Below the pieces are notes generated by a model. That model did not search any database and was not told where the DNA came from. It saw nothing but the letters and a program-made list of their open reading frames with translations. The translations under genes and the position numbers were made by a program. Positions 19,165 to 64,000 of a stretch of 64,000 nt of DNA are shown piece by piece. The DNA comes from an uncultured Anaeroplasmataceae bacterium (lineage in GTDB: Bacteria > Bacillota_I > Bacilli_A > Acholeplasmatales > Anaeroplasmataceae): assembly GCA_947629825.1 (NCBI GenBank), contig CANRFF010000001.1, forward strand, positions 1 to 64,000, read 5' to 3'. Each line of letters begins with the position of its first letter. The stretch's first letter is position 1.

Positions 19165-19179
19165 AAGGGAAGTGATCTG

Positions 19180-19833: not shown

Positions 19834-19856
19834 TTGTTTTAAAAATGTCTTATCTG

Positions 19857-19865
19857 TGATATAAT
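19857..19865 (+). promoter_or_regulatory. Extended -10 promoter of degV operon
   Basis: TGA-TATAAT, 25 bases before the DegV start codon; a TTGTTT at 19834-19839 is spaced 20 bases away, longer than usual. Confidence 0.6.
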
Positions 19866-19890
19866 AATAAAAAGGAAGAAGGGGAAGCAT

Positions 19891-38445: not shown

Positions 38446-40686
38446 TTAAAGGGATTTTAAAAGTTGTAACGGATTTTGTTTTTGATTATACCGATAAAGC
38501 GGATAAATCAGGGAAACAATGAACAAAAACAAAGGAACACCGAACAAAAATAAAATCGTAGGGATTGAAATGATCGGAAGAACCAGCTGAACACCGAATA
38601 AACTGTTTAAAAGCGTATTGAGGGAAAAATTCATTACTACCGCCAAAGGAACGGCTCCCGAAAAAGTAAGGATTGCCGAAAAAACGGCTTGAATCAAATA
38701 TATTTTCGAAATATCGGAATAAGTCATTCCCAACACTTTATCAATGGCGATTTGTTTTTTATCGGATTCAATGGAATCCCAGGAAAATTTCAAACACAAA
38801 AGCACCCCAAGCAAGAACAAGACGATACTTAAATATAAAATGATGTTTTTCAGTAAGTCATAAGTATCTTTGATGGATTCCATCATAATCTCGTAAGGAC
38901 TTTCCACAACAAAATGATTTTTCTGAAAGAATTCGAGATTTTTTCGATTGATTTGTTCTTTTTCGGATAATTTCAAAAGAAAACCGGTTGTTTTCGGCGC
39001 CGTCGATTCCGTTCGGATCGTTTCGTAAAATTCTTCGGAAAGATAAATCCGATTTTCCGAACAAGATGATATGATTTTCACATTTTTTTCGCCTAAATTA
39101 TCGATTTTTATTTTGCTTTCTCCGATGAATGAGGTAGGGCAAATGATTTCGTTTCCCTGCAGATTTTTTGAAATTTGTACTTCCAGATCTCGATAGGAAA
39201 ATTCCTTATCGGCAGATTGGATGGAACAAGAAAGAGAAGAAACGGGCATTTGTTTGAAAAAATTCTCGTGGACAAAAAGAGCCGTATGGATTCCTTGATT
39301 TAAACTGTGTATTTCATCTGAAATGTGGTTGTTTGTTTTGTTTTCGATTTTGTTTTTATAATAGTCGTAATTGAATTTTGTATCGATTACACCCACAATC
39401 CGATATTCATGGGAATCGATATCAAACGGAACGGAAGTCAAATCTTCAAACGTATGGATGGAGTAGTTTGTGTTTTGATTCCGATATCCGAAAGCTTTAT
39501 AGGATTGAAACAGATAGTCGGTAATAACCACTTCATTTTCTTTGGTGGGAAAAGTTCCCTCGATGAGAAAATGATTGATTTTCTTTTGGTTTTGGGAAGA
39601 TAATACAATGATTCCCGAAAGATTGTCTTCCGCCAAACACAACGAAAAGCCGGAATACGTGCGGTTCGCAAAATTCGTATCTATCCCCGTTTGAAATCTG
39701 ATACAGGATTCCATATCCAAAACTTGATTTTGCAAAGCGGAATCAAGTTCCAAATCGGAAATATCTTTATTTGATTCCTCGGGTTTTAAGGTTAAAAAAG
39801 TGTCGTTAAAAGATTTTGCGGAATGTAGGAGGATTTCATTGGGATGATATTGATTCATTGTAAGAAAACTTCCGACAAACGCCAAAGATAAAATAATTGC
39901 AAATAAAATGAAAATATAAAATTTAAGATGATCATATAAATGATGAAAAGATTCCTTGATGATAAATTTTAAGGAAACGGAAGTTTTTTTAAAACAAAAA
40001 GGCTCGCATTCCGCATCGTAAAGTTGCGGTTGGGTATCGGAATGGATTTTTCCGTTTTCCAAGAGGATGATTCGATCGGCATAGGGCTTGATTAAAGAAA
40101 TGTCATGAGAAACGACAATTACCAGTTTTGTTTCGGAGATCTCTTTCAAAAGGTCTAAAATCATTGTCGCATTGTCAAGATCCAAAGAACTGGTCGGTTC
40201 ATCGGCAATCAGAATATTCGGATTTTTCAGTAAGGCTCTGGCAATGGAAACCCTCTGTTGTTCCCCTCCGGACAATTCGGAAGGATATTTGTCTTTGTGT
40301 TCTTCCAGTCCGAATTGATGAAGCAATTTTTCTATTTGATTTTCTTTCGAATTTTGAATTTCAAGCGGAAGAGATAAATTTTCAAAGACGGTTTTATTTT
40401 CAATCAGACAGAAATCCTGAAAGATAAAACCGATTTCACTGTTTCGGTATGCATTTAATTCTTTGCGGGATAAGTTTTTAAGATGGATATCCCGATAGAA
40501 TACATCACCCTCATAATCCGTATCCAGACCGGACAAGATGTTAATCAACGTCGATTTTCCGGCACCGCTTTTTCCACTGAAAAGAAGAAACCCTTTATTG
40601 TTGATTTTCAAAGAGATATCTTGTAAGGCAGAAGAACGTTTCCCTTTTTTGGACAAATATGTTTTCGTCAGATTTTCTATTTGCAT
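38446..40686 (-). CDS. ABC transporter: fused ATPase and FtsX-like permease (copy A)
   Basis: 746 residues in a MacB-like order. Residues 1-225 are the ATPase: Walker A SGKSGAGKST near 38-47, Q-loop FIFQDF, signature LSGGEQQR near 138, Walker B ILIADEPTSSLD near 157, H-loop VVSHD. A transmembrane helix near 247-270 precedes a large external domain (about 275-600), and three C-terminal helices form an FtsX permease (about 610-740). Such proteins couple ATP hydrolysis to work on extracytoplasmic substrates such as lipids, peptides or toxins. GAGG precedes the start, three bases after the stop of copy B. Its ATPase DNA is nearly identical to that of copy B while the permease parts differ completely. 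Confidence 0.9.
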   Translation of the reverse strand: MQIENLTKTYLSKKGKRSSALQDISLKINNKGFLLFSGKSGAGKSTLINILSGLDTDYEGDVFYRDIHLKNLSRKELNAYRNSEIGFIFQDFCLIENKTVFENLSLPLEIQNSKENQIEKLLHQFGLEEHKDKYPSELSGGEQQRVSIARALLKNPNILIADEPTSSLDLDNATMILDLLKEISETKLVIVVSHDISLIKPYADRIILLENGKIHSDTQPQLYDAECEPFCFKKTSVSLKFIIKESFHHLYDHLKFYIFILFAIILSLAFVGSFLTMNQYHPNEILLHSAKSFNDTFLTLKPEESNKDISDLELDSALQNQVLDMESCIRFQTGIDTNFANRTYSGFSLCLAEDNLSGIIVLSSQNQKKINHFLIEGTFPTKENEVVITDYLFQSYKAFGYRNQNTNYSIHTFEDLTSVPFDIDSHEYRIVGVIDTKFNYDYYKNKIENKTNNHISDEIHSLNQGIHTALFVHENFFKQMPVSSLSCSIQSADKEFSYRDLEVQISKNLQGNEIICPTSFIGESKIKIDNLGEKNVKIISSCSENRIYLSEEFYETIRTESTAPKTTGFLLKLSEKEQINRKNLEFFQKNHFVVESPYEIMMESIKDTYDLLKNIILYLSIVLFLLGVLLCLKFSWDSIESDKKQIAIDKVLGMTYSDISKIYLIQAVFSAILTFSGAVPLAVVMNFSLNTLLNSLFGVQLVLPIISIPTILFLFGVPLFLFIVSLIYPLYRYNQKQNPLQLLKSL

Positions 40687-40689
40687 AGG

Positions 40690-43137
40690 CTACCTCTTCA
40701 GCGCAACGAACGGATTGTTTCCTTTAAAATATTTTTTATAGCAAAGAAGCATAATCGGCAGTGTTAAAATCACATAGATCAAAGCGGATAGCAGAATCGA
40801 AATCCATAAATCATTCAGTGCGTTTAATGTAGTGGCAAAATGAGTGTTGATCATATCGAACAATCTGTAATATATTCCGTAAATCACTCCTATGGATAAC
40901 AGAAAAGTAAGCAAAGTGATAAAAAAGGAATGAAGAATATAAGGTTTTGCCACGTCTGTCCGGGAATAACCAAACGAAAAATAAAGCCCGATTTCTTTTT
41001 TATTGTGATAAAGAAGCGTTTTATAGTAAGAAATCAACATCAAAATCAGTATGAGAAACAGAATTACGGTAATCCCTAACATGATCAGCGTTAAAAACTG
41101 CAAAAACTCACCGGATTGATTTGCCATCAGTTGATAAGGATTGGTTATTCCCAAATTATATTTTTGTAATGTCCGCAACAAAGATAAATCTTTTTGTAAA
41201 TTTCCGGAAAGTTTGATCCACAAAGACGAAGAACCCCAAAAACCAAAGGTATTGTACAATTCCTCTTTGAACGTTTCACTGGTAATGAGAGAGTCTTTAA
41301 AGCCTTCGGTGTATATTCCTACCGGTTGGATCGCTATTTTGATGTCTTGAAAGGCACTTTCATAATCGGAAGTTGTGGAAAACGACAGATAATCGTATTG
41401 ACCTTTTTGAATTTCTTCTTTTTGATATTGTGCATAAGCGGGAAGAAGAACTTCGTTGTTTTCCAAATGATCTTTCGGTTCGGTAAACCAGATAATGTGA
41501 TCCTCTTGTAAAGAAATATCCTTATCGGAAAGACAATAATCAATGCTTCCGTTTAAATCAATGACATTCCGATTGGCGCTAGACATCAAAAAAGGTGCTG
41601 CAAAAATCGTATTTTTATCGAGAGGATTTCTTGTAAAATAACCGTCATTAAAAACGATAGTGCTGTAAGTGGAAGCGGAGATCAACCGGGAATGTTCGGT
41701 GCTTAAAGAAGTTTTCTGATCTTCGGATAAATTTTGGTCATCTATATGTTCATATCTTGTCAAATCCGCATTTCCGATCGAAAAGATTCCGCAGATCTGA
41801 AATTCCTTTTGATTGATTTTTACCGTATATTTCAATAAATCCCGATAAGAGTAAATTCTGTTTTTGGAAAATTCTTCCGATTCTTCTTTCAGTTGATTGT
41901 AGATCAACACAGGAACGGCGATTTCATTGTCGTCGGTTGGATAATTTCCTTCGACAAGATGAAAATCAAACGATTCGTAGGTCTGTGTTTTTTCTTCCAC
42001 ATATCCCGAAAACGTCGATTCGATGGAATCAATTTTATATTCGATTCCGTTAATTCGTTTGATGATATATTCATCTTTGAAAGTAATTCTCAAATCCATA
42101 AATTTGGAAAGATAGGAAAGAGAATTTGTTTTCAATAAGTCCATCTTTTTTTCTTGTAGTAATTGATCTGTCAAACCATTTGGAATCAAAGATGTCGCAG
42201 ACAGACTTTTTTCATATTTCGTATTTTCGGATTTATACATATCTTCCAAAAGAGAAACAGAAGCGTATAGTTCATGATCGGCATACATATTTTGCAGAAT
42301 AAGTTTATTTTTGTTTTGGGTGGCAAACGCAAATCCTATGGTAAACAAACTGAAACACAAGATAAAAAGAAATAAGGTAAAAACAATTTTAAAAACGGAT
42401 ATTTTCAATTTTAGAAATATGGAAAAAACTTTTTTCCAAGACAGATGTGCCGAAGTGAAATGATGTGTGTTTTCTTCTTGAATGGTTTCGAGTGGTTGGG
42501 AATCGGAACGGATTTTTCCATTTTCCAAGAGGATGATCCGATCGGCATAGGGCTTGATTAAAGAAATGTCATGAGAAACGACAATCGCCAGTTTTGTTTC
42601 GGAGATCTCTTTCAAAAGGTCTAAAATCATTGTCGCATTGTCAAGATCCAAAGAACTGGTCGGTTCATCGGCAATCAGAATATTCGGATTTTTCAGTAAG
42701 GCTCTGGCAATGGAAACCCTCTGTTGTTCCCCTCCGGACAATTCGGAAGGATATTTGTCTTTGTGTTCTTCCAGTCCGAATTGATGAAGCAATTTTTCTA
42801 TTTGATTTTCTTTCGAATTTTGAATTTCAAGCGGAAGAGATAAATTTTCAAAGACGGTTTTATTTTCAATCAGACAGAAATCCTGAAAGATAAAACCGAT
42901 TTCACTGTTTCGGTATGCATTTAATTCTTTGCGGGATAAGTTTTTAAGATGGATATCCCGATAGAATACATCACCCTCATAATCCGTATCCAGACCGGAC
43001 AAGATGTTAATCAAAGTCGATTTTCCGGCTCCGCTTTTTCCACTTAAAAGAAGAAATCCTTTATTGTTGATTTTCAAAGAGATGTCTTGTAAGGCCGTAA
43101 CCTTTTTATATTTTTTAGAGACATTTTCTATGACCAT
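40690..43137 (-). CDS. ABC transporter: fused ATPase and FtsX-like permease (copy B)
   Basis: 815 residues: ATPase domain (1-225) with the same motifs as copy A, a transmembrane helix near 265-285, an external domain of about 330 residues, and three C-terminal helices with the FtsX pattern. ATG 43137 is chosen because GGTGGGTGA lies just upstream and the family's usual first residues (VIENVSKKYKK) follow; the frame extends 29 codons further back without support. Promoter at 43157-43185. Copies A and B probably work as a heterodimer. Divergent from a LysR regulator gene, which may control them; that is inference. Confidence 0.9.
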   Translation of the reverse strand: MVIENVSKKYKKVTALQDISLKINNKGFLLLSGKSGAGKSTLINILSGLDTDYEGDVFYRDIHLKNLSRKELNAYRNSEIGFIFQDFCLIENKTVFENLSLPLEIQNSKENQIEKLLHQFGLEEHKDKYPSELSGGEQQRVSIARALLKNPNILIADEPTSSLDLDNATMILDLLKEISETKLAIVVSHDISLIKPYADRIILLENGKIRSDSQPLETIQEENTHHFTSAHLSWKKVFSIFLKLKISVFKIVFTLFLFILCFSLFTIGFAFATQNKNKLILQNMYADHELYASVSLLEDMYKSENTKYEKSLSATSLIPNGLTDQLLQEKKMDLLKTNSLSYLSKFMDLRITFKDEYIIKRINGIEYKIDSIESTFSGYVEEKTQTYESFDFHLVEGNYPTDDNEIAVPVLIYNQLKEESEEFSKNRIYSYRDLLKYTVKINQKEFQICGIFSIGNADLTRYEHIDDQNLSEDQKTSLSTEHSRLISASTYSTIVFNDGYFTRNPLDKNTIFAAPFLMSSANRNVIDLNGSIDYCLSDKDISLQEDHIIWFTEPKDHLENNEVLLPAYAQYQKEEIQKGQYDYLSFSTTSDYESAFQDIKIAIQPVGIYTEGFKDSLITSETFKEELYNTFGFWGSSSLWIKLSGNLQKDLSLLRTLQKYNLGITNPYQLMANQSGEFLQFLTLIMLGITVILFLILILMLISYYKTLLYHNKKEIGLYFSFGYSRTDVAKPYILHSFFITLLTFLLSIGVIYGIYYRLFDMINTHFATTLNALNDLWISILLSALIYVILTLPIMLLCYKKYFKGNNPFVALKR

Positions 43138-43156
43138 TTTTTCACCCACCGCATTT

Positions 43157-43185
43157 ATTTTACAATAGTTATTTTGAAGTGTCAA
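43157..43185 (-). promoter_or_regulatory. SigmaA promoter of the ABC-FtsX operon
   Basis: On the minus strand: TTGACA (43180-43185), 17 bases, TAAAAT (43157-43162), with TG before the -10. Confidence 0.85.
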
Positions 43186-43418
43186 ACAAAGAATAGTAGA
43201 TTTTATACATTTGGGAATTGTCAAGTCGATTATAATGGGAAACTGTATTTTTTCTCATAAATTTATGGTGTCTTTTGATTTTATCTCGTGCTTTTATTTG
43301 AAAGTAATGTACCCAAAAGGTCAAACCATCTTTTTTCTTTGCTCCAACTCTTGATTTTATTCCGAAAGAGTTATAAAATTTAAAATATCAATAAATTTTA
43401 TTTATGGGAGAAAAGAAG

Positions 43419-51540: not shown

Positions 51541-51569
51541 TTGAAAAGTCGCATCAATCATAGTATAAT
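51541..51569 (+). promoter_or_regulatory. SigmaA promoter of the AAA/repeat-protein operon
   Basis: TTGAAA (51541-51546), 17 bases, TATAAT (51564-51569). This is the only convincing promoter seen for the genes from 51626 to the window end. Confidence 0.8.
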
Positions 51570-51581
51570 GAAACAATAAGG

Positions 51582-51603
51582 TATAGAATTATATAATTCT
51601 ATA
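51582..51603. promoter_or_regulatory. 22-bp perfect palindrome in the operon leader
   Basis: A 22-base perfect palindrome, TATAGAATTAT followed at once by ATAATTCTATA. It starts about six bases after the expected transcription start and ends 22 bases before the first start codon. A dimeric repressor site is the simplest reading; a short RNA hairpin masking the leader is the alternative. Confidence 0.7.
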
Positions 51604-51625
51604 AAGTGATTGTGGGGATAGTAGT

Positions 51626-53011
51626 ATGTTGAAAGAAAATATCCGGGAAGAACAACCAGAACAAAAAGGAACGAAGGAAGAACATTCGGAGTTTCAACCA
51701 CCCAAAACGTTTTTCAAACGCAAGACGAAAATCTGTTTTGTCGTTTTTTGTTTTTTCTATCTGAATGCCTTGATAGGATATACAATGTATCGTTTATGGG
51801 AAAACAAAACATTACCGCAGATTCTTGTCGTTTCTTTTGTGGCGGTTGTTTTTAATTTTGCGTTGATTGCCTGTTTGATTCATTTATTACGAAATAAACC
51901 GATGATTGTTGCCGATGTTTCCGATTTGCTTCGGGAAATCGATTGTCCCAATGCTTATCCGGTGGAAATAAAAAAAGAAGATGCAGTCGAAGAGGATCTT
52001 TTGGAAGATGTCATCGCTGAGAAAGGTTCTTATGAAGAAATTTACAATCCGCAAGGTCAAGTGAAGTCGTTGAGTTTGGCTGATGCCTGTACTCAGTTTT
52101 GTGCGTATTCCGCTACGAGAGGATTGCTTGTCGACTATTCTACCGCCAGAGTTTTCTTCTCGGCGCTTACGACAACCAAATTGATTTTGATTCGCAGTAT
52201 TCAGGAAAATCTGGCGAAAAAGTTCATTACCATCGCCAAAGAATATTTTTCCAATCAGACGCCTCTTATTTTCATTGATTCGCAAATGATGACGAATCGC
52301 CAGTTTTTGAATCATCCGCTTTTCCGTCAAGCCGTGGAAGAAGCCAATGCGTTTCCCGATCGGATTACGCTTGCGGTGTTGGACGGAATGAGCATGAGTC
52401 AGATGGATAAAATTTTTGCGCCGATGATGCCGTTTATCGGAAAAGTCGAAAAAACATGGCCGATGAGCGGTGAGATGACGATTCCTCAAAATTTTTGGAT
52501 GGTTGCGCTTACCGAAGAAAATGAGTATTCCAAAGATCTGGCAATGAATACTCTGACTTTGGAATTGGATGGTCGTTTTGCGGAAGAAACGGAATTTACA
52601 GAAGAACTGAAATTGCTGAGTTACTCGAATCTTGTGGACAATCTGGTCGTGGATGACGATTTTCTCTATTCCATTTCGGAAGAAGATTGGAAGAAATTGG
52701 ACGAATTGGAAGACTATCTTCAAAGATATGCGAGATTTCATTTGGAAAACCGCTCGACGAATCAAATGGAAGACTTTGCGTTTGCCTATATGATTGCGGG
52801 TGGAGAAGAAAAAGATGCGCTGGACGGCGTTTTGGCTTGTAAGATTTTACCGCCGCTTCTTCAAAATTCCGAATTGACGTCGATGGAAAAAGAAGACAAT
52901 CTTTCTGCGAAAATCGAAGAACTATTCGATCCGGATCATCTTCAACACAGTCGTAAAGTTTTAAAGCGGGTGCAAAAGAAAGCAGAGGGATTGAAAAATG
53001 ATGTTGTTTAG
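51626..53011 (+). CDS. Membrane protein with inactive AAA-like domain (first gene of the system)
   Basis: 461 residues. A charged 30-residue N-terminus is followed by two transmembrane helices (about 34-52 and 66-88). An acidic linker leads to a cytoplasmic domain that lines up with the AAA proteins encoded next: FFSALTTTKLILIRSIQENL near 175-194 sits where their Walker A helix lies but has no GxxxxGK[ST]. LAVLDGMSMSQMDKIF near 250 replaces Walker B LDEMNIAR (Glu lost). PQNFWMVALTEEN near 288-300 parallels their sensor-1 segment PENMWFIGTANND. I infer a catalytically dead paralogue, perhaps a structural subunit of the AAA ring. The ribosome site is weak (GGGGA). Confidence 0.7.
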   Translation: MLKENIREEQPEQKGTKEEHSEFQPPKTFFKRKTKICFVVFCFFYLNALIGYTMYRLWENKTLPQILVVSFVAVVFNFALIACLIHLLRNKPMIVADVSDLLREIDCPNAYPVEIKKEDAVEEDLLEDVIAEKGSYEEIYNPQGQVKSLSLADACTQFCAYSATRGLLVDYSTARVFFSALTTTKLILIRSIQENLAKKFITIAKEYFSNQTPLIFIDSQMMTNRQFLNHPLFRQAVEEANAFPDRITLAVLDGMSMSQMDKIFAPMMPFIGKVEKTWPMSGEMTIPQNFWMVALTEENEYSKDLAMNTLTLELDGRFAEETEFTEELKLLSYSNLVDNLVVDDDFLYSISEEDWKKLDELEDYLQRYARFHLENRSTNQMEDFAFAYMIAGGEEKDALDGVLACKILPPLLQNSELTSMEKEDNLSAKIEELFDPDHLQHSRKVLKRVQKKAEGLKNDVV

Positions 53012-54380
53012 TGCCAATGATTTTTTTCATCAACTTTGGAATTTTTTATCCAGTAAATATGCGATGATTGTTTATGTGGCTCTGATTTTGATTTTAATTG
53101 TCATTTTGACCATTTTCGTTATGGTAAACGAACACAGAAAGGCAGAAATTTACCGGGTGACGGACGAAGAAGAAATCATTTATGAAAATCCGAAAGATGC
53201 TCCTTCTTCCGCTTCGCCCGTGGAATCTTCTCGGGTACCGGAGACTCCTTCTGCGGAACAAGGCGAAGAAGAACCGAAAGAAGAGAACAAAACGGAAGAA
53301 AAAAGCCGGTTTTATATGTTGAGTCAAATCGATCGGGAGATGGAACATTACGAAGCCCCGGAGTATGATGATAAAGTTACACTGAAAGAAATCTGCGAAC
53401 GGTTTCGCCGATATGCGGGAAGCCGGTTGGGATTATATTACGATATTCAGGATATCCGAAGATTTATCGCAGGGATGGCGGTAACGCATATTATGATATT
53501 ACAAGGGATGTCCGGAACCGGAAAAACATCGCTTGCGTATGCGTTCGGAGAATTCTTACGGAATCGGACGGTGATTGTACCGATTCAACCGATGTGGAAA
53601 GAGCGAACGGATTTGTTGGGATATTATAACGAGTTTACAAAGAAGTTCAATGAGACGATGTTACTGGAAAAGATGTATGAAGCCAATTATAACGACGAGA
53701 TCTATATTACGGTTTTGGATGAAATGAATATCGCAAGAGTAGAGTATTATTTTGCGGAATTTTTATCGTTATTGGAGATTCCGAATCAAGAAGGAAGAAA
53801 TATCGATGTAGTGAGTGACCGGTGGGAAAACGATCCGAAGTTATTGAAAAACGGACAGTTGAGATTACCGGAGAATATGTGGTTTATCGGTACGGCGAAT
53901 AACGACGATTCGACCTTTGCGATATCAGATAAGGTCTATGACCGAGCGATGATTATGAATTTGGATAAGAAAGCGACGGTATTCGAAGAAGGGGAAGAAG
54001 AATCGATGAAGATATCAAGCAGTCATCTTCACCGATTGTATAAAGAGGCAATGAAAGAATATCGTATCACAAGAAGGAATCTGAATCGGATCAAAGAATT
54101 GGATGAGTATATGATCAAAGAGTTTCACCTGACGTTTGGAAACCGGATAATGAAACAGATCCGGAGTTATGTACCGGTGATTGTGGCGTGCGGAGGAACG
54201 GAGTTGGAAGCGATTGATGATATCTTGTCAAGGAAGATCATTCGGAAATTGGAGTCGCAAAATCCGGTATATGTCAGAAATTCCGCAAGTGGATTGATTA
54301 CTTATATGGATGAATTATTCGGAGAAGACAAATTGCCTTTATGTAAGGCTTATATCGAACGAATCAAACGGACAGTTTAG
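52998..54380 (+). CDS. Membrane-anchored McrB/MoxR-like AAA ATPase (copy A)
   Basis: 460 residues. One transmembrane helix (about 20-43, YAMIVYVALILILIVILTIF), a Ser/Pro/Glu-rich acidic linker (about 55-110), then a cytoplasmic AAA domain: Walker A LQGMSGTGKTS near 169-179, Walker B TVLDEMNIARVEYYFAEFLS near 237-256 (the DEMN form typical of McrB and MoxR-like AAA), sensor-1 FIGTANNDDSTF near 296, and arginine-containing SDKVYDRAMIM near 310. A helical C-terminal lid ends the protein. From 53264 to the stop its DNA matches copy B (56542-57658). It overlaps the preceding gene by 14 bases. Confidence 0.85.
   Translation: MMLFSANDFFHQLWNFLSSKYAMIVYVALILILIVILTIFVMVNEHRKAEIYRVTDEEEIIYENPKDAPSSASPVESSRVPETPSAEQGEEEPKEENKTEEKSRFYMLSQIDREMEHYEAPEYDDKVTLKEICERFRRYAGSRLGLYYDIQDIRRFIAGMAVTHIMILQGMSGTGKTSLAYAFGEFLRNRTVIVPIQPMWKERTDLLGYYNEFTKKFNETMLLEKMYEANYNDEIYITVLDEMNIARVEYYFAEFLSLLEIPNQEGRNIDVVSDRWENDPKLLKNGQLRLPENMWFIGTANNDDSTFAISDKVYDRAMIMNLDKKATVFEEGEEESMKISSSHLHRLYKEAMKEYRITRRNLNRIKELDEYMIKEFHLTFGNRIMKQIRSYVPVIVACGGTELEAIDDILSRKIIRKLESQNPVYVRNSASGLITYMDELFGEDKLPLCKAYIERIKRTV
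53264..54380 (+). repeat. Long direct repeat, unit 1 (AAA module)
   Basis: About 1,117 bases identical by eye to 56542-57658 (offset 3,278), covering the end of the linker and the whole AAA domain. The only differences I saw are two bases near the 3' end (CGG/CGA codon and TAG/TAA stop). Upstream of 53264 the two genes diverge quickly, with patches of similarity back to about 53207. Confidence 0.92.
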
Positions 54381-54401
54381 TTTTGAAGGAGGGATCACAA
54401 A

Positions 54402-56219
54402 TTGGATAAATCAGATGTTTTATATCGTGCTTTTTGTGATTACCGCAAATGGACCGAAGGAAATAAAGAGTGCCGATATCAACGAAAAGAATTAAGACAA
54501 GCCGATTCGGATAAAGATTGGATTAAGACGAAAAAGTATATTTGTTCGATCGATGAAGATTGGGTTGTGGAAATCGAGAATTCTTTGGAATTTATTGTGA
54601 ATGCCATTCAGGAAGAACGGCAGTTTATTACGTCTATGGGCGAAGTGGTACCGATCGAAAAAGTTCGAAAAGTATCGAAAGCTTCCGTGGAGCATTTGGC
54701 CCGGCACAGCAATTTGATTACGCATGTTCCGGAAGAAGAAAAAGCCGATTTGGTCCCGGAAAAAATTTATATGGTCGAAAAACTGGCGGATTATACGGTT
54801 TACGAAAATCGCTTTTTGTATATGCTTCTTTGTTATTTAAGGGATTTTATCGAATTGCGGTTGAATAAAATCACGGCGATGACCAGTCGTTTTACGGGGT
54901 CTTACGAAGCCGATAAAAAAATAGAAAGTAAGTTGGCGAAATTTCAGTATCAGATTCGATTTTACGAGGAGCGTTCGGATAATCCGAAACCGTTGTTTTC
55001 GGCCAATTCCGATGATCTGTTCGACCGCATCAAATCGATTCAGCATACGGTTTTGTCTTTGTTGAATACGCCTTTGATGATTGAGGTTTCCAAAGCTCCG
55101 ATGATCAAACCGCCGATTGTCAAAACGAATCCTTTGAAGATGAACAACAATTTCAAACACGCTTTGGCGCTTTATGAATTCGTTTCCGCCTACGACAAAG
55201 ACGGTTTTACAATCGAAGAACAGGAAAAAAATTTCCATCCGTTTCCGGATGTCGTCTCCGATGAAGTTTCGGAATTGATGGTATTGACTTCTTTTTTGGT
55301 TTTCCTCTACGGAAATGATCTGAGAGCGGATTTGAAATTACGTTATGAAGCCGACGAAGAACGCCGAAAAGAAGCGGAAGCCAAGCATTTGGTAGAACAA
55401 ATCAAGCGTTTGAAACGAAGAATTCTGGAATCCGGTATGGGTACGGAAGAATATATGTTGTTGTTGGAACAGCGGAATCGGGATTTAGAAAAGGCCAATA
55501 CGGAATTGGTAATTGCCAAACAGTTGATCGAGCAGTTGAATACGCAAATCAACGATTTGAAAGATAAAAATCAGCAACTGCAAAAAGAGATTCGGCGGAA
55601 AGAAGCCGAAATCACGGCATTGAACGAAAAATATATTCATGATTTGAATGAACAGCAACAGGCCTATGAAGCGCAGATCGAACAAATGAGCGAAGAACAT
55701 CTGGAAGAAATTGCCGATTTGGAACAAGCCCACCAACAGGAGTTGGAAGATTTACAGGCGCAACATATCGAGGAATTGGATGAACAGGCGCTGTCTTTCG
55801 AAAACGAAAAACAACAGTGGCAGGAAGAGTTGGATTTGGCCGAACAGGCGAAAGAAGAATTGGTTCGTCGTCATCAGGAAGAACTTTCCGAGTTGGATCA
55901 AAAGCGGGAAGAAGAAAAAGGTTCTTTCGAACAGACATTGGAAAAACAAAATTCCGAAGCGTTGGAATTGGAAAAGAAACTTGCCGGACTGACGGAAGAA
56001 AAAAGATTGCTTTCGGCTCAGTTGAAAAGCGAACTCCAACAAAGAGGTCTGACGAAAGATATGGATTTTACTTCCAAGGAAAATTTTCAGGAATTGGAAA
56101 AAGAATATCAGGCATTTACCCGTTTTTTTCAGGAACAGTGGAAAGAAACAAAGAAAAAAATAAGAAAAGATATCCTTTGGAACAGCGAACCGAAGAAAAA
56201 GAACAAAGAAGAATCTTAA
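54402..56219 (+). CDS. Coiled-coil protein with DUF2357-like N-terminal half
   Basis: 605 residues, soluble. Residues about 1-300 are globular; the segment DYTVYENRFLYMLLCYLRDFIELRL near 127-151 is like the Y-x-x-x-ENRF signature of DUF2357 proteins, which accompany McrB-type AAA proteins. Residues about 310-560 form a long, highly charged coiled coil (heptads rich in Glu, Gln, Lys, e.g. LEKANTELVIAKQLIEQL). No PD-(D/E)xK nuclease motif is visible at the end, unlike McrC. The start is TTG 54402 with GGAGGG 8-9 bases upstream. It sits between the two AAA copies, 21 and 23 bases from them, so it is probably their partner. DUF2357 membership needs a profile search. Confidence 0.7.
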   Translation: MDKSDVLYRAFCDYRKWTEGNKECRYQRKELRQADSDKDWIKTKKYICSIDEDWVVEIENSLEFIVNAIQEERQFITSMGEVVPIEKVRKVSKASVEHLARHSNLITHVPEEEKADLVPEKIYMVEKLADYTVYENRFLYMLLCYLRDFIELRLNKITAMTSRFTGSYEADKKIESKLAKFQYQIRFYEERSDNPKPLFSANSDDLFDRIKSIQHTVLSLLNTPLMIEVSKAPMIKPPIVKTNPLKMNNNFKHALALYEFVSAYDKDGFTIEEQEKNFHPFPDVVSDEVSELMVLTSFLVFLYGNDLRADLKLRYEADEERRKEAEAKHLVEQIKRLKRRILESGMGTEEYMLLLEQRNRDLEKANTELVIAKQLIEQLNTQINDLKDKNQQLQKEIRRKEAEITALNEKYIHDLNEQQQAYEAQIEQMSEEHLEEIADLEQAHQQELEDLQAQHIEELDEQALSFENEKQQWQEELDLAEQAKEELVRRHQEELSELDQKREEEKGSFEQTLEKQNSEALELEKKLAGLTEEKRLLSAQLKSELQQRGLTKDMDFTSKENFQELEKEYQAFTRFFQEQWKETKKKIRKDILWNSEPKKKNKEES

Positions 56220-56242
56220 TGTAATTGAAGGAGGTGAAAACA

Positions 56243-57658
56243 ATGATCCATAAAAAACATACGATCCGATTGATTTTATTTTTGATGATCGTTTTCCTTG
56301 TGGGCGGACTTTTAATCTATGCTCTTTGGAACAGCAATATCGATTCCGCAAACACTTGGGTCAATTCCGAAGTGATTTATATGGTTCTTGTTTTAGCCGT
56401 CCTTTTACCGATTTTTTTAATCGTATTGATTGCGAAAGTTTCCAATCGGGAAACGGAAGTGTTTGAAGTTACTCAAGCGAAAAATCCTTCCGCTTCGCCC
56501 ATGGAATCTTCTCGGGTACCGGAGTCTTCTGCGGAAAAAACCGAAGAAGAACCGAAAGAAGAGAACAAAACGGAAGAAAAAAGCCGGTTTTATATGTTGA
56601 GTCAAATCGATCGGGAGATGGAACATTACGAAGCCCCGGAGTATGATGATAAAGTTACACTGAAAGAAATCTGCGAACGGTTTCGCCGATATGCGGGAAG
56701 CCGGTTGGGATTATATTACGATATTCAGGATATCCGAAGATTTATCGCAGGGATGGCGGTAACGCATATTATGATATTACAAGGGATGTCCGGAACCGGA
56801 AAAACATCGCTTGCGTATGCGTTCGGAGAATTCTTACGGAATCGGACGGTGATTGTACCGATTCAACCGATGTGGAAAGAGCGAACGGATTTGTTGGGAT
56901 ATTATAACGAGTTTACAAAGAAGTTCAATGAGACGATGTTACTGGAAAAGATGTATGAAGCCAATTATAACGACGAGATCTATATTACGGTTTTGGATGA
57001 AATGAATATCGCAAGAGTAGAGTATTATTTTGCGGAATTTTTATCGTTATTGGAGATTCCGAATCAAGAAGGAAGAAATATCGATGTAGTGAGTGACCGG
57101 TGGGAAAACGATCCGAAGTTATTGAAAAACGGACAGTTGAGATTACCGGAGAATATGTGGTTTATCGGTACGGCGAATAACGACGATTCGACCTTTGCGA
57201 TATCAGATAAGGTCTATGACCGAGCGATGATTATGAATTTGGATAAGAAAGCGACGGTATTCGAAGAAGGGGAAGAAGAATCGATGAAGATATCAAGCAG
57301 TCATCTTCACCGATTGTATAAAGAGGCAATGAAAGAATATCGTATCACAAGAAGGAATCTGAATCGGATCAAAGAATTGGATGAGTATATGATCAAAGAG
57401 TTTCACCTGACGTTTGGAAACCGGATAATGAAACAGATCCGGAGTTATGTACCGGTGATTGTGGCGTGCGGAGGAACGGAGTTGGAAGCGATTGATGATA
57501 TCTTGTCAAGGAAGATCATTCGGAAATTGGAGTCGCAAAATCCGGTATATGTCAGAAATTCCGCAAGTGGATTGATTACTTATATGGATGAATTATTCGG
57601 AGAAGACAAATTGCCTTTATGTAAGGCTTATATCGAACGAATCAAACGAACAGTTTAA
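56243..57658 (+). CDS. Membrane-anchored McrB/MoxR-like AAA ATPase (copy B)
   Basis: 471 residues. Unlike copy A it has two transmembrane helices (about 7-29 and 43-67) with a short external loop (NSNIDSANTWVNSE). The acidic linker and the AAA domain are then the same as in copy A: Walker A near 181, DEMN Walker B near 248, sensor-1 GTANNDDST. The protein sequence from the linker (about residue 100) to the end is identical to copy A. AAGGAGGTGA precedes ATG 56243. Two active copies with distinct anchors may make mixed rings or act at different membrane partners. Confidence 0.85.
   Translation: MIHKKHTIRLILFLMIVFLVGGLLIYALWNSNIDSANTWVNSEVIYMVLVLAVLLPIFLIVLIAKVSNRETEVFEVTQAKNPSASPMESSRVPESSAEKTEEEPKEENKTEEKSRFYMLSQIDREMEHYEAPEYDDKVTLKEICERFRRYAGSRLGLYYDIQDIRRFIAGMAVTHIMILQGMSGTGKTSLAYAFGEFLRNRTVIVPIQPMWKERTDLLGYYNEFTKKFNETMLLEKMYEANYNDEIYITVLDEMNIARVEYYFAEFLSLLEIPNQEGRNIDVVSDRWENDPKLLKNGQLRLPENMWFIGTANNDDSTFAISDKVYDRAMIMNLDKKATVFEEGEEESMKISSSHLHRLYKEAMKEYRITRRNLNRIKELDEYMIKEFHLTFGNRIMKQIRSYVPVIVACGGTELEAIDDILSRKIIRKLESQNPVYVRNSASGLITYMDELFGEDKLPLCKAYIERIKRTV
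56542..57658 (+). repeat. Long direct repeat, unit 2 (AAA module)
   Basis: Second unit of the 1.1-kb direct repeat described at 53264-54380. Recombination between the units would delete the coiled-coil gene and leave one hybrid AAA gene. Confidence 0.92.
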
Positions 57659-57678
57659 AAAGAAAGGAGATGAGTTCT

Positions 57679-60513
57679 GTGGTTCGCAAAGGAAAAAGAG
57701 CGGTTTATATTTTGGGAAGTGTCATCATAGGACTCATTTTTGTTCTGTTTGTTTATTTTGTGATGATTTCCATCGGCGTGATTCAACCGCGGAAAACGGA
57801 TTTGGTGATTATGTCGTCTACGATTCAAAAACAATATGACGGAAGTGCTTTGGTCGGAACCGGTTATGAGATCGTGGAAGGAAAACTGAAAGACGGTCAC
57901 CATTTGAATGTGGAATTTACTTCTTCCATCACAGAAATCGGTTCTTGCGACAATGAAATCAATGTTCAGGTCTTGGATTTGGAAGGTGCCGATATTTCCA
58001 ACCGATACAATTTACAGTTGGAATATGGAAAACTGATCGTTCGCAAACGGGCGCTGACCATTCAGATTTTGAATAAAACCAAAGTATACGACCGCACCCC
58101 ATTGGTTGTGGAAGAAAGCGACTGGACGGTTGTCAACGGAAGTGTTCTTCCGACCGATGAGTTGACGGTTACCGTGCAGGGCGAACGAACGGAAGTCGGT
58201 CAGGAACAGTGTTATATGACCGCAACGCTGACAAATATGAACGGACAGGATGTCAGCGATAATTATGATGTTCGTTTTCTCGGCGGATTGTTGGAAGTAA
58301 CGGGAAGACCGCTGACCATTCAAGTCGGCAGCGCAACGAAACTTTATGACGGACTTCCTTTGACGGCAGAAGATTACGAAATCGTTGAAGGGGGACTTTT
58401 TGAAAATCATCATTTGGAATTGGAATATTTGGGTTCACAAACCGAAGTCGGTGCTTCCGATTCGACGGCTCGAGGTGTCGTTTTGGATGAATCGGGAAAC
58501 GATGTTACCAAAGATTATGCCATTACGTATCTTCCGGGGACTTTGGAGGTAACGACCATCGATTTGAAAGTTTATACCGAAGATATCAGTAAAACCTACG
58601 ATGGAACGCCACTCGTTTGCGAAGATGAAACAAAAGTCCGATTTGAATCTCTTTTACCGAATCATCAGGTAACTTTCCGTTTTACCGGTTCCCAGACCAA
58701 TGTGGGAGAATGTGAAAATACCGTTGAAATCGTAAGTATTGTCGACGAAAACGGAAAAGATGTCACAAAAGCATACAACATCAACAATGAATTCGGTAAA
58801 TTGAAAGTTCAAAAATGCAGAGTGGATATCCGTTTCCAGAATCTCCGGTATTCTTATGACGGAATGGAACATTTTTATGAAGATAGCGAAGAAAATTGGA
58901 GTATTTCTCCGCTTGGGTTTCCGAATCATCGGGTGGAAGTTCATATTGAAGAAGCCGGATTGACGGAAGTCGGAACGAAAAACATCAAGGTTACCTCCAT
59001 GAACGTATATCGTGAAGACAATAACGAAGATGTATCCTCGAATTTTACTTTTCCGACCAATCTGAGAATCACACTGGAAATTACCAAATGTAAGATCAAA
59101 ATCAAAAGTAATGATATTGTTAGTGTCGAATATGACGGAACCGATCATAAAGATTCGAAAAACGTTGAAATCATATCGTCGGATTCTCCTTTTTCCGATT
59201 TGAAGATAGAATGTTCTTTTAGTGAATTGACGAAAGAAGTCGGCATTTTTAAAAATGAATTTACGATCAACAAAATCACAAACGATCAAGGACAGGATAT
59301 CACCAAAAATTTCGATATCGAATCCGAATTTGGAGAAATCAACATTACCAAGATCTCTCTTAAAATCGTTACGGCAACACTTGAAAAAGAGTATGACGGT
59401 ACCCCGCTTTTCCCGGAGCCGACAGATTGGGCTTTGGTGAGCGGAAGATTGGTAGATGGTGATACGATTAACGGCGAGTTAAACGCTTTTCAACAAGAAA
59501 TCGGATCCAAAGATAATGTTTTATCGAATTTGACGATTGGCAATGAGACGACGAAAGCCGATCATATGAATCACTATGAGGTGAATTGTGAGTGGGGAAA
59601 ACTGATTGTCTATGCGAATGACCGACATCAGATTACGATTTCTCCTCGACCGATTTATATCGATGAACAAGATTGGGACAAATCTCTTATCAAGGCCGAT
59701 AAATATTTACAGGAACAATACTCGCTCAATCCGGAATTGACCCCAATCATCGGATTCGGTGAATGGTTGGCTCAAGGATATCGTATCGAGGCTTCCATCG
59801 AAGGCGAGTTGAATGAAGTCGGTGCGGTTGAAACGAAGATCACGTATAACACTATCAGGGTTTATATGGGAGAAGAGGACGTCACTTCCGAATTCTTTTT
59901 CCAGACAAAACCATCGATTTTGCAGATTTATCAATATCGTTTACGGATTACGACTCCTTCGGCTCGGAAAGAATATGACGGAACCCCGCTTAAAACCACA
60001 ACGGAGGGCTGTTCGTATTCGATTACTTACCATGGCGAAATATATGAAACCAAAGATGAAATTTCTTATGAACTCATCGGTCAGCAGACGGAAGTCGGGT
60101 TGTCATATAATTCGGTTCGGGTAACGATTGCCGGAGAAACGGATTTCGAAGGAGAACGTTATAAATTATATTATATTGACGATTCGGCGTTCGGACGTTT
60201 GGAAGTAACCAGAAAAAGAGTGATTATTTCTTCCGAAAGCAAGACCATTACCCAGGAAGAACTGGAAAGAGATTATCCGATCGGATTTGTTTGGGAAAAA
60301 TATACGATTGACGGTGTTGCTCCCGACGAATTGCCTCAGGAGTGGGATCTGTTTGATATTCAGATTACGTTCAGTCCGGAAGCCAGACTGGATGGTGTCG
60401 GGCAGACGCTCAATGAATTTACGGTAAGAATCATCCTGAAAGAAACCGGTCAGGATGTCACAAAGAATTTTATTTGTTTCAATTCTTTTGGAGATTTGAT
60501 TGTAGAAGAATAA
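57679..60513 (+). CDS. Giant membrane-anchored YDG/MBG-repeat protein, first
   Basis: 944 residues. A short basic N-terminus, one transmembrane helix (about 8-35, YILGSVIIGLIFVLFVYFVMI), then only repeats of roughly 85-90 residues. Each unit has K-x-Y-D-G-T-P-L near its start, a G-x-L-x-x-x-H segment, a T-x-V-G turn, D-V-(T/S)-x-N-Y and a closing G-x-L-x-V strand. Eight copies show the YD signature and about two more are degenerate. Such units are Ig-like (YDG/MBG families) and usually extracellular. No LPXTG or second helix is seen, so it should project outward from an N-terminal anchor. GTG 57679 fits the AAAGGAG at 57663-57669 better than ATG 57670, only one base away. Confidence 0.85.
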   Translation: MVRKGKRAVYILGSVIIGLIFVLFVYFVMISIGVIQPRKTDLVIMSSTIQKQYDGSALVGTGYEIVEGKLKDGHHLNVEFTSSITEIGSCDNEINVQVLDLEGADISNRYNLQLEYGKLIVRKRALTIQILNKTKVYDRTPLVVEESDWTVVNGSVLPTDELTVTVQGERTEVGQEQCYMTATLTNMNGQDVSDNYDVRFLGGLLEVTGRPLTIQVGSATKLYDGLPLTAEDYEIVEGGLFENHHLELEYLGSQTEVGASDSTARGVVLDESGNDVTKDYAITYLPGTLEVTTIDLKVYTEDISKTYDGTPLVCEDETKVRFESLLPNHQVTFRFTGSQTNVGECENTVEIVSIVDENGKDVTKAYNINNEFGKLKVQKCRVDIRFQNLRYSYDGMEHFYEDSEENWSISPLGFPNHRVEVHIEEAGLTEVGTKNIKVTSMNVYREDNNEDVSSNFTFPTNLRITLEITKCKIKIKSNDIVSVEYDGTDHKDSKNVEIISSDSPFSDLKIECSFSELTKEVGIFKNEFTINKITNDQGQDITKNFDIESEFGEINITKISLKIVTATLEKEYDGTPLFPEPTDWALVSGRLVDGDTINGELNAFQQEIGSKDNVLSNLTIGNETTKADHMNHYEVNCEWGKLIVYANDRHQITISPRPIYIDEQDWDKSLIKADKYLQEQYSLNPELTPIIGFGEWLAQGYRIEASIEGELNEVGAVETKITYNTIRVYMGEEDVTSEFFFQTKPSILQIYQYRLRITTPSARKEYDGTPLKTTTEGCSYSITYHGEIYETKDEISYELIGQQTEVGLSYNSVRVTIAGETDFEGERYKLYYIDDSAFGRLEVTRKRVIISSESKTITQEELERDYPIGFVWEKYTIDGVAPDELPQEWDLFDIQITFSPEARLDGVGQTLNEFTVRIILKETGQDVTKNFICFNSFGDLIVEE

Positions 60514-60536
60514 AATGAAGAAAGGAGGAGATCGGT

Positions 60537-63500
60537 ATGGAAAGTTTATATGAAAAATATGAACAGAAAATGAAGAAAATCGCTCATATCAAAAATACGA
60601 TTTTACGTTTTAAAATCTTAATACTTTCCGCTTTCGCCCTGGTCATCGGCTTGGTCGTGAGTTATTTGTCCGTTTGCGGGATGATTTTAACCGATCTTCC
60701 TCCGATGACGGAAATGACTTACGGCGATGTGATTTCCTGTGAAACGAGCGCACTGTTTTCCAAGGTTCATTACGAATATTCTTTGGCTTCGGTCGAAACA
60801 TGGTCCGATGAGGTTCCGAAACTTCCCGGAGAATATAAAATCCGTGCCGTTTCGCATCGGAGTTTCGGAATAAAAGGGTATGGAAAAGAGTATCCGTTTA
60901 CGATTCTTGCGAAAAACATCGATGTTCGGATTTTGGAATCTTCTGTGGAATTCGGTGGGGTTCCGACTCCCGTGAGTACGGGTTTGGTCGGAAAAGATCA
61001 TTTTGTTTATGACGGGCAGTGTTTTGAATTTGCCGATCGCACAATTCAAAAGACGAAAGTATCTTTGAAAGAAAATACGCTTAAAATCGTCGATGAAGAA
61101 GGAACCGATGTCACTGCCGGATATATTATGAATCTTGAAAAAGACAAAGATATTTCTTATGTCGCAAGAAAACTGACGATTCAGTTAAAAGATCAGACCA
61201 AAGAATATGACGGAACTCCATTGACTTCCGAAGAATATGATATTGTCGGCGGAAGTCTTTTGGAAGGACACCGGTTGGAAATTGGGGTCAAGGGGTCTCA
61301 GTTGAATGTCGGCAGTAGTAACAATATTGGTGTGTCTGCCAGAATTTTATCGGACAATGAAGATGTTTCCGCCAATTATCAGGTTCAGTTTCTTTCGGGA
61401 CGGTTGACGATTCAAAAACGGAAAATTACGATTCAAACGGATAGTGATCAAAAAATATATGACGGCAAAACTTGGATTCGACCGGATTACGGATATGAAC
61501 TTTCCGAAGGAAATCTGGTTTCCGGACATCAGATTAAAGTCGTATCCAAACCGACGGTGCTGACAGTGGGAACGTATGCCAATCATTTCGATTTTCAAAT
61601 TGTGGATTCCCAAGGCGAAGATGTAACCGGAAATTACGAATTGACTTTGGAAGAGGGAACGCTAGAAGTTCTTCCGAAACCGATCACCATTTCCACAAAA
61701 GAGGCGTCCAAAATTTACGACGGCATTCCGTTGGTGGAATATGCTTTGACGGAAGAACCGACTTTGGCCGAAAATCAACAGTATCGTATTTCTTATACGG
61801 GAAGCCAACTCTTTGTCGGGGAATCGGAAAACAAAGCGACGATTTCGCTTTATGAAGGTTCGGTCAATGTGACCTCGAATTATCAGATTACGTACCATTA
61901 CGGAAAATTAAAAGTGGAAGCCCGATCCTTGACCATTCGGCCGAAAATCGGCTCGTGGATTTATGACGGCACCTATAAAACCATATCGCAAGTCGATTAT
62001 TTGTCGAGTTCTTTGGCTGCTTCCGATCGCATCGAAGTTGAAACCGATCGGATCCGAAATGTAGTAGACGGATATGAAAATCACATCCGGAATATAAAGA
62101 TTTATCATGGAACTACCGAAGTTACCCAATGTTATGATATCATCAAACAGACGAATACCATGACGATTACCCGCCGTCCGCTTCGAATCGAACCGCAAGG
62201 AGAAACGTTGACTTATGACGGGTTGGAACATTCGCTTTCTCAATATCGGTTATCAAATTCGACAACGCTGGGAAGCGGAGATGTTTTGAAAATCGAAACG
62301 CCGGCTCATTGGAAAACAGGTATTTATGTGTTATCCGTTACGTCGTATTCCATCACTTATGAAAATGAAGATGTGTCTTCGAATTATGAGGTGACGTTAA
62401 ATACCGGACAACTGAACATTCAGACAAGAACGATTTATCTGACTACCAAATCGGCAGAAAAAGTTTACGATAATCAACCGCTTACCTGTTATGAAGTCCA
62501 ACTGGATCGTAACACGTCTTTGGCGTCTACCGACCGGTTACAGATGTCTTATTCGAATTCGATTCTCGAACCGGGAAGTACTTCCAATCTTGCGACTGCC
62601 ACTATTGTTCATTCCGGGGAAAACGTCAACCATTGTTATCACATTGTGTGGAGTTACGGAAAGTTGACGATTCTCAAGCGACCGCTTTCATTACGAGCGA
62701 TGTCGGCAGACAAAGAATATGACGGAACACCGCTGGAAGCGACCTCTTATGAAGTGGTCGGAGCCTATGACGTTCTTTTGGGACATACGTTATTGGTAAC
62801 GGTTGCGGGAAGTATTACCGATTACGGAACGAGTCCGAACCGGATTGTTTCTCATCAAATTGTCGATGAAAATCATAAAGATGTATCCGAAAATTATAAA
62901 GTTGAATATCTGGAAGGCATTTTGAAAATCAGTCAGAGAACCATTCTTGTCCAAACGGGAACGGAAGAATGGGAATATGACGATCAGGCGCATTCCAATG
63001 AAGTGATTTCCGCAGATCGTTTGGTGGAAGGACATCAGTTGAAAATTCAAACCAAAGAAACGATTACGGAAGTGGGAAATAAAGCCAATGAGATTACGGT
63101 AAAAGTGATCGCAGGGACACAAGATGTAACGAACAATTATTCCATTCGTTATGATTACGGAAATCTATCGGTGACTCCGAGAAAGATGACGGTGACGACT
63201 CCTACTCATACCTGGATCTATCAATCTTACGATTTTTCCGATCCCGAAATCGAAACAGATCGTTTGATATCGACTCATACGACGAAAATTTCTTCTTATC
63301 CGACCATTCGTCATGTCGGAAGTATTTCCAATAATGTTTTGGTTGAGATTATGAAAGACGGAGTTTCCGTCACAAAAAATTATGAGATTACCTATGTATA
63401 TGGAACGTTGTCGATTACACCGCAACGGTTGGAGTTGGAGATTCTCGACAAAGTCAAAGAATATGACGGAGAAGAATTGACTTCCGATGAATATTCGGTT

Positions 63501-64000
63501 TCGGGATTACAAGGGGCGGATCGGATTGTGGTTTTGACCACGACCGGTCGTGTTACTTATGTTCATGAAGGATTTGTGGAAAATGGTTTGAATTCGCTTC
63601 AAATTCTCGATGAATTCGGAACGGATGTGGTAAAAGATTATGAAGTAGTGGTTCAAAAAGGAACGTTGTCGATTACGCCGAGACCTTTGGTTGTGAAACC
63701 GCTCGATTTGGAAAAGATTTATGATTCCACTCCTTTGGTACATAAATCTTCGGATTTTGAGACGATTCGCTCGACCTCGTTGGTTTTGAAAGATTACGGA
63801 CAAATGAGTACCGCCAATCGTTCGGTAACAAATGTTTGGGACGGAATTGTGCAAAATCAGATTACGGAATTCAAAATCTTCAATGAAAACGGCTTGGATA
63901 TTACTTCAAGTTATGAAATTACCTATGAAACGGGAACGTTGAAAATCAATCCGAGACCGATTTTAATCGAGACCGGAAGTTACGATGAAATTTATGACGG
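60537..64000 (+). CDS. Giant membrane-anchored YDG/MBG-repeat protein, second (truncated by window end)
   Basis: An open frame of at least 1,154 codons with no stop before the end of the window. ATG 60537 follows GGAGGAG. After a charged, coiled N-terminus of about 20 residues comes one transmembrane helix (about 25-47, FKILILSAFALVIGLVVSYL). A non-repeat external stretch to about residue 150 follows, then YDG/MBG-like units every 250 bases or so. YD motifs occur near 61206, 61456, 61716, 61961, 62216, 62466, 62718, 62981, 63467, 63720 and 63992. Units are diverse in DNA, unlike the AAA copies. It is the second giant repeat protein of the operon, 23 bases after the first. Confidence 0.85.
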   Translation, partial: MESLYEKYEQKMKKIAHIKNTILRFKILILSAFALVIGLVVSYLSVCGMILTDLPPMTEMTYGDVISCETSALFSKVHYEYSLASVETWSDEVPKLPGEYKIRAVSHRSFGIKGYGKEYPFTILAKNIDVRILESSVEFGGVPTPVSTGLVGKDHFVYDGQCFEFADRTIQKTKVSLKENTLKIVDEEGTDVTAGYIMNLEKDKDISYVARKLTIQLKDQTKEYDGTPLTSEEYDIVGGSLLEGHRLEIGVKGSQLNVGSSNNIGVSARILSDNEDVSANYQVQFLSGRLTIQKRKITIQTDSDQKIYDGKTWIRPDYGYELSEGNLVSGHQIKVVSKPTVLTVGTYANHFDFQIVDSQGEDVTGNYELTLEEGTLEVLPKPITISTKEASKIYDGIPLVEYALTEEPTLAENQQYRISYTGSQLFVGESENKATISLYEGSVNVTSNYQITYHYGKLKVEARSLTIRPKIGSWIYDGTYKTISQVDYLSSSLAASDRIEVETDRIRNVVDGYENHIRNIKIYHGTTEVTQCYDIIKQTNTMTITRRPLRIEPQGETLTYDGLEHSLSQYRLSNSTTLGSGDVLKIETPAHWKTGIYVLSVTSYSITYENEDVSSNYEVTLNTGQLNIQTRTIYLTTKSAEKVYDNQPLTCYEVQLDRNTSLASTDRLQMSYSNSILEPGSTSNLATATIVHSGENVNHCYHIVWSYGKLTILKRPLSLRAMSADKEYDGTPLEATSYEVVGAYDVLLGHTLLVTVAGSITDYGTSPNRIVSHQIVDENHKDVSENYKVEYLEGILKISQRTILVQTGTEEWEYDDQAHSNEVISADRLVEGHQLKIQTKETITEVGNKANEITVKVIAGTQDVTNNYSIRYDYGNLSVTPRKMTVTTPTHTWIYQSYDFSDPEIETDRLISTHTTKISSYPTIRHVGSISNNVLVEIMKDGVSVTKNYEITYVYGTLSITPQRLELEILDKVKEYDGEELTSDEYSVSGLQGADRIVVLTTTGRVTYVHEGFVENGLNSLQILDEFGTDVVKDYEVVVQKGTLSITPRPLVVKPLDLEKIYDSTPLVHKSSDFETIRSTSLVLKDYGQMSTANRSVTNVWDGIVQNQITEFKIFNENGLDITSSYEITYETGTLKINPRPILIETGSYDEIYD

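Follow-up and report, generated by a model that had tools for sequence, protein, structure and literature searches.

A conserved gene set of McrB-type AAA proteins and giant YDG-repeat proteins in Bacillota as a candidate trans-envelope machine

Why would AAA ATPases of a type known from DNA restriction share an operon with giant surface repeat proteins? The question is raised by the end of a 64,000-nucleotide stretch from an uncultured Anaeroplasmataceae bacterium (contig CANRFF010000001.1, positions 1 to 64,000; hereafter the window), which is part of a 263-kb contig in a 1.42-Mb genome. An initial annotation described six tightly spaced co-directional genes behind one visible promoter, and both observations were confirmed. 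The six open reading frames, g1 to g6, lie on the forward strand with spacings of −14, 21, 5, 11 and 23 bases. The promoter-like site TTGAAA-17-TATAAT upstream of g1 (51541..51569, +), proposed from an 11/12 consensus match only, is the top promoter-like match within the scanned region; all terminator-like plus-strand sites found there lie within genes and none in the intergenic gaps. The gene set runs past the window edge at 64000. In the sequence obtained beyond that point, g6 ends at 66368 and three further operon genes extend to 72390. On the 3' side of g9 come genes for a ferritin-like protein, a methyltransferase-like protein and acetate kinase, the first and the last of them named directly from the sequence. 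A simple hydropathy scan, the source of the topology given throughout, finds hydrophobic transmembrane (TM) segments in the products of five of the six window genes, one more than the four membrane-anchored proteins counted initially. The GC content of the operon (39–44%) is close to that of its surroundings (36–43%), giving no clear sign of foreign base composition.

The two motor genes are g2 (A1; 52998..54380, +), which encodes one TM anchor, and g4 (A2; 56225..57658, +), recognized by its nucleotide identity to g2 and encoding a two-TM anchor. Across loci, A1 likewise usually has one hydrophobic segment and A2 usually two in the hydropathy scan. Both proteins match Pfam AAA_5 (1.4e-07), and McrB provides the only PDB matches of the AAA by sequence. 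GxSGTGKT as P-loop and N-NDD-S (NNDDS) as sensor stretch are present in 48/48 A1 and 48/48 A2 proteins, although three of these 48 loci (L063, L082 and L092) duplicate contigs already in the set, so that independent numbers are slightly lower here and in later counts on this set. An intact P-loop together with an NxD signature, instead of NxxD, places A1 and A2 in the NxD branch. In Bell et al. (2024, PMC11090510), this shortened signature delimits one branch of McrB-like proteins. A DUF2357 partner, the other mark of that branch, is encoded in the same operon, with an AAA gene adjacent in 73 of 82 loci.

That partner is the product of g3 (D; 54402..56219, +). The full-length protein gives no Pfam match, but trimming away the coiled coil brings out DUF2357 (PF09823, 7.7e-10). 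Coiled-coil matches, SMC among them, fall at about residues 315–550. DUF2357 is the stimulator domain of McrC, and in g3 the coiled coil stands where McrC has its nuclease; no nuclease family, PD-(D/E)xK included, was matched on g3 in Pfam, NCBIfam or PADLOC. A fold search with the model of the DUF2357 protein matched no solved structure. The conserved stretch 74–126 is of low confidence in that model, and no structural claim is built on it.

The first gene, g1 (51626..53011, +; two TM segments), encodes a distant paralogue of the AAA proteins (E 6.9e-14, 22% identity). Motif inspection finds no Walker A, Walker B or sensor 1 residues, and its AlphaFold2 model resembles the AAA+ folds of RavA, MCM and McrB with modest scores (E 2e-4 to 1e-3). 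In most Clostridia, g1 carries about 600 additional N-terminal residues that form a degenerate GH3 domain. Among 30 g1 proteins of relatives, GH3_C is found in 29 and an Fn3-like domain in 28, and GH3_N, the catalytic barrel, is weakly recognized in just four. Neither the SDW nucleophile motif nor the KHF motif is present in the expected barrel region of these proteins. Judged by these domains and motifs, the extension in Clostridia is a pseudo-glycosidase.

The two giants follow the second motor. The g5 product (Y1; 57670..60513, +) has 947 residues and one N-terminal TM segment (residues 18–36), and the g6 product (Y2; 60537..66368, +, cut by the window at 64000) has 1,943 residues and one TM segment. 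Both match YDG above the cut-off of 25 bits, Y1 at 61.4 bits (1e-16) and Y2 at 34.5 bits (2.4e-08). The initial naming of the parts, a dead AAA, McrB-type ATPases, a DUF2357-like coiled-coil protein and two giant YDG-repeat proteins, therefore holds for each of them. Across loci, the hydropathy scan usually finds one hydrophobic segment close to the N terminus of Y1 and Y2, and the predicted cytosolic N-terminal stretch of Y2 is similar among loci. Neither a signal peptidase nor a sortase signal was recognized in the window operon, and the giants are presumably exported via Sec. Beyond the window lie g7 (66385–68226; 613 aa, several TM segments), g8 (68238–68951; 237 aa, three TM segments) and g9 (68932–72390; 1,152 aa, one TM segment, LRR_5 at 3.1e-48). 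Upstream of g1 in Clostridia lie g8 and a small gene that matches window g9 in its N-terminal domain and TM segment (3.3e-14). Thus, g8 and g9 are part of the system, flanking its core on either side.

Whether such genes travel together elsewhere had been set beforehand as a test of the initial proposal. They co-occur across 83 loci, far more than expected by chance. A search with gene 3 in 100 relatives gave strong matches scattered across the family and the order, and a scan of one genome per species yielded 158 relatives. The best 80 of these 158, which were fetched, are chiefly Clostridia MAGs, with Acholeplasmatales, Bacillales-labelled MAGs, a Haloplasma contractile MAG and the isolate Anaerocaecibacter muris. 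Across the 83 loci the order dead AAA, AAA, DUF2357, AAA, YDG, YDG recurs; the median gap is 14 bases, and 220 of 225 intergenic gaps do not exceed 100. Relative to D, an AAA gene follows in 73/82 loci and precedes in 65/79, and g1 stands at −2 in 55/66. Positions +2 and +3 are taken by YDG genes in 54/60 and 52/54 loci, respectively. ORF-calling losses account for most of the exceptions that were examined: tblastn recovered the missing AAA genes in most such loci, and some gaps marked '?' in the synteny table arose where antisense ORFs had won in GC-rich contigs. The eight or nine adjacent genes are an unnamed set common to gut and free-living Bacillota relatives.

The presence of this system is patchy, lineage-specific and at a variable site. 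No close match to gene 3 was found in the ten same-genus genomes searched. In seven of these ten, the corresponding site runs from NUDIX through other genes to the methyltransferase and acetate kinase in the space of a few kilobases; the window instead carries the 21-kb operon and ferritin there. An even sample of 245 phylum genomes gave a strong gene 3 match (E ≤1e-79) in three besides the window. Carriage by phage or plasmid was considered and rejected, with no match on the plasmids searched and no relative in viral contigs. Two unannotated fecal scaffolds labelled 'Bacteriophage sp.', MT835511.1 and MT837127.1, hold distant AAA relatives only (29–35% identity) and may be bacterial contigs.

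In the window, g2 and g4 share 99.3% nucleotide identity across 1,174 nt, a feature absent from the initial annotation, and their AAA domains are identical at the protein level. Within a genome, the AAA domains of A1 and A2 are at least 99% identical in 32 of the 48 loci, and median identity between genomes is about 65%. The first 80 residues behave in the opposite way: in other genomes they match best, without exception, the gene at the corresponding position, for A1 in 44/44 cases and for A2 in 43/43. It follows that the duplication is old, that the anchors have retained their identity and that homogenization has struck the catalytic domain repeatedly. We conclude that concerted evolution is restricted to the AAA motor domain. 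Near-identical A1/A2 pairs differ by 302 synonymous and 15 nonsynonymous codons, and this excess of silent changes means that selection also maintains the protein sequence. An assembly artefact is excluded because the identical pair recurs in many independent genomes; in the single-contig genome G086 the pair is 100% identical over 1,112 nt. Recent separate duplication in each genome is likewise excluded by the positional N-terminal anchors (87/87 cases).

Identical partners are not obligatory. In one Clostridia clade, the tree and pairwise identities (about 60–70%) place A1 and A2 in separate lineages, and locus L106 is a natural variant with a single AAA gene, in the order g1, DUF2357, AAA, YDG, YDG. 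The paired motors thus form a natural experiment, with identical catalytic domains and divergent anchors in most lineages and a parting of the two in one clade. Homogenized neighbours are also seen elsewhere in the window, where two adjacent ABC transporters (38446–43224, −) share 602 nt at 98.2% identity, corresponding to the ATPase part, and differ in their permease parts. The A1/A2 identity may partly come from such general conversion of tandem paralogues.

How does this operon relate to described systems? The initial annotation knew of none with this content, which stands in part. A related branch, CoCoPALM, has been named; the combination of dead AAA/pseudo-GH3, paired motors and YDG giants was not found in the literature searched. 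Bell et al. (2024, PMC11090510) give CoCoPALM a few sentences, with detailed treatment deferred, and characterize it by three features: an NxD McrB to which a membrane part resembling FtsB is fused, coiled coils on the DUF2357 protein, and signal-peptidase neighbours. No later paper on CoCoPALM was found in the literature searched. CoCoPALM is the closest named kind. Common to both are an NxD McrB-type AAA with a membrane segment, a DUF2357 protein with a coiled coil, the lack of a McrC nuclease and an envelope context. However, CoCoPALM has a signal-peptidase neighbour and an FtsB-like fusion, whereas the window operon is without signal peptidase and has two AAA genes, a dead AAA (often with pseudo-GH3), two YDG giants, and g8 and g9. 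Being CoCoPALM-like without the signal peptidase, it is best classed as a variant within the NxD McrB-DUF2357 systems. For the unexplored CoCoPALM branch, the operon offers a contrast case with conserved parts.

Other relatives are further removed. E. coli McrBC likewise joins a McrB-type AAA to a DUF2357 partner. In contrast to its NxxD signature, nuclease and DNA-reading domain, the window operon has NxD, no PD-(D/E)xK nuclease or DNA-reading domain, and membrane anchors and surface repeat proteins instead. CoCoNuT shares the NxD motif, DUF2357 and a coiled coil, which is on the AAA in CoCoNuT and on the DUF2357 protein here. Unlike CoCoNuT, the window operon is without an RNA-binding domain and without HEPN or another nuclease, none being recognized among its proteins in Pfam, NCBIfam or PADLOC. 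RavA-ViaA and MoxR-vWA have an AAA+ of a related clade, and the g1 model resembles RavA. However, these systems have a vWA protein; none was recognized in the window operon, which has the DUF2357 partner instead.

The genome of the window also contains a paralogous AAA and DUF2357 cluster with membrane segments (G000:C4:42816-52400, L052), and similar clusters occur at L042, L045-L051, L053 and L055. In most of these loci, the neighbours are SipW-like signal peptidases together with several secreted proteins whose signal is of the TFAWF type; no family model matched these proteins. By their signal motif, they may resemble TasA/camelysin. By its gene content, the paralogous cluster matches the CoCoPALM description. 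In a tree, the window-operon AAA and the signal-peptidase-linked paralogue AAA form separate clades with 100/100 support, the comparison being with this paralogue.

We propose that the operon encodes an AAA+ machine of McrBC type, anchored in the membrane, by which giant YDG-repeat fibres of the surface are exported, assembled or mechanically worked, a proposal to which we give an even chance. A1 with one TM segment and A2 with two, sharing one catalytic domain, would together make up a mixed ring at the membrane's inner face. A common ring is suggested because the domains are identical, and positional anchors on a shared motor domain would fit two anchors feeding one ring. The dead AAA would also enter the ring, either regulating it or simply not hydrolysing. 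Inserted into the ring, the DUF2357 protein would stimulate hydrolysis as McrC does for McrB, the coiled coil replacing the nuclease. Hydrolysis would then work on Y1 and Y2, both anchored in the membrane with their repeats outside, and g8 and g9 would assist. The sequences establish the gene content, the motifs, the conserved order, the homogenized motor domains and the hydrophobic segments; we infer the composition of the ring, the topology, the nucleotide used, the substrate and the direction of work, and likewise that the motor assembles, exports or pulls fibres. The initial suggestion of a trans-envelope layout, from cytosolic AAA to extracellular repeats, is supported. A more specific version is tentative and, in our estimate, somewhat short of even: an undescribed class of Bacillota trans-envelope machine in which a restriction-enzyme motor, NxD McrB with DUF2357, is recast as a mixed-anchor membrane ring driving giant extracellular Ig-like fibres, and in which gene conversion, together with strong purifying selection, keeps the two catalytic domains identical. 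If true, the McrBC motor, known from DNA restriction, also serves envelope biology, and the paired motor genes make the mixed-ring question directly testable.

Anti-phage defence was initially set beside this proposal as an equal alternative, a standing that it does not keep. A membrane-tethered McrBC-like system could sense infection through the giants or the dead AAA and then kill the cell or block DNA entry by its motor. Its McrBC and CoCoNuT relatives are restriction systems (PMC11090510), its patchy presence at a variable site would fit, and the AAA matches the candidate-defence model PDC-M26A at 1e-46. However, the same model matches the signal-peptidase-linked paralogue AAA at 2e-40, and thus marks the AAA branch rather than defence. 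The conserved set shows no nuclease, HEPN or methyltransferase, and the neighbours are housekeeping genes in the window and mixed elsewhere. Only three family matches to PADLOC models were found among 79 upstream flanking proteins, which gives no support to a defence-island setting, and neither the plasmids searched nor the viral contigs carried the system. Membrane anchors, outward giants placed after the motors, the envelope context of the paralogue, the lack of a nuclease and the housekeeping or mixed neighbours together favour an envelope machine, and we regard defence as unlikely.

Two further readings stay at the envelope. MoxR-type AAA proteins function in protein maturation, and a RavA/MoxR-like membrane unfoldase could extract or mature envelope proteins, with the YDG giants as substrate or scaffold. 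The resemblance of the g1 model to RavA and MCM is consistent with such quality control or remodelling, and the pseudo-GH3 domain could recognize glycans. Conversely, Pfam recognized no MoxR-type vWA partner, and the only solved sequence matches of the AAA are McrB; this reading appears decidedly improbable. In surface adhesion or motility, the motor would pull the membrane-anchored giants to produce sticking, twitching or gliding. Giant repeat and BspA-type LRR proteins on the outside, occurrence in the Haloplasma contractile MAG and in Acholeplasmatales, and the similar cytosolic N-terminal stretch of Y2, which could serve as a handle, all speak for it. However, force generation is not visible in sequence, and many carriers belong to gut Clostridia that are not known to glide, which leaves it doubtful, if still worth keeping in mind. 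It is a special case of the fibre machine proposed above and not its opposite.

The carriers of the gene set include common gut bacteria with unstudied large surface proteins. As a separate observation, locus L005 encodes, at 13332-19871 (contig 75332-81871) and shortly after acetate kinase, a 2,180-aa protein with an N-terminal hydrophobic stretch, long repeats and weak LRR_5/Flg_new matches.
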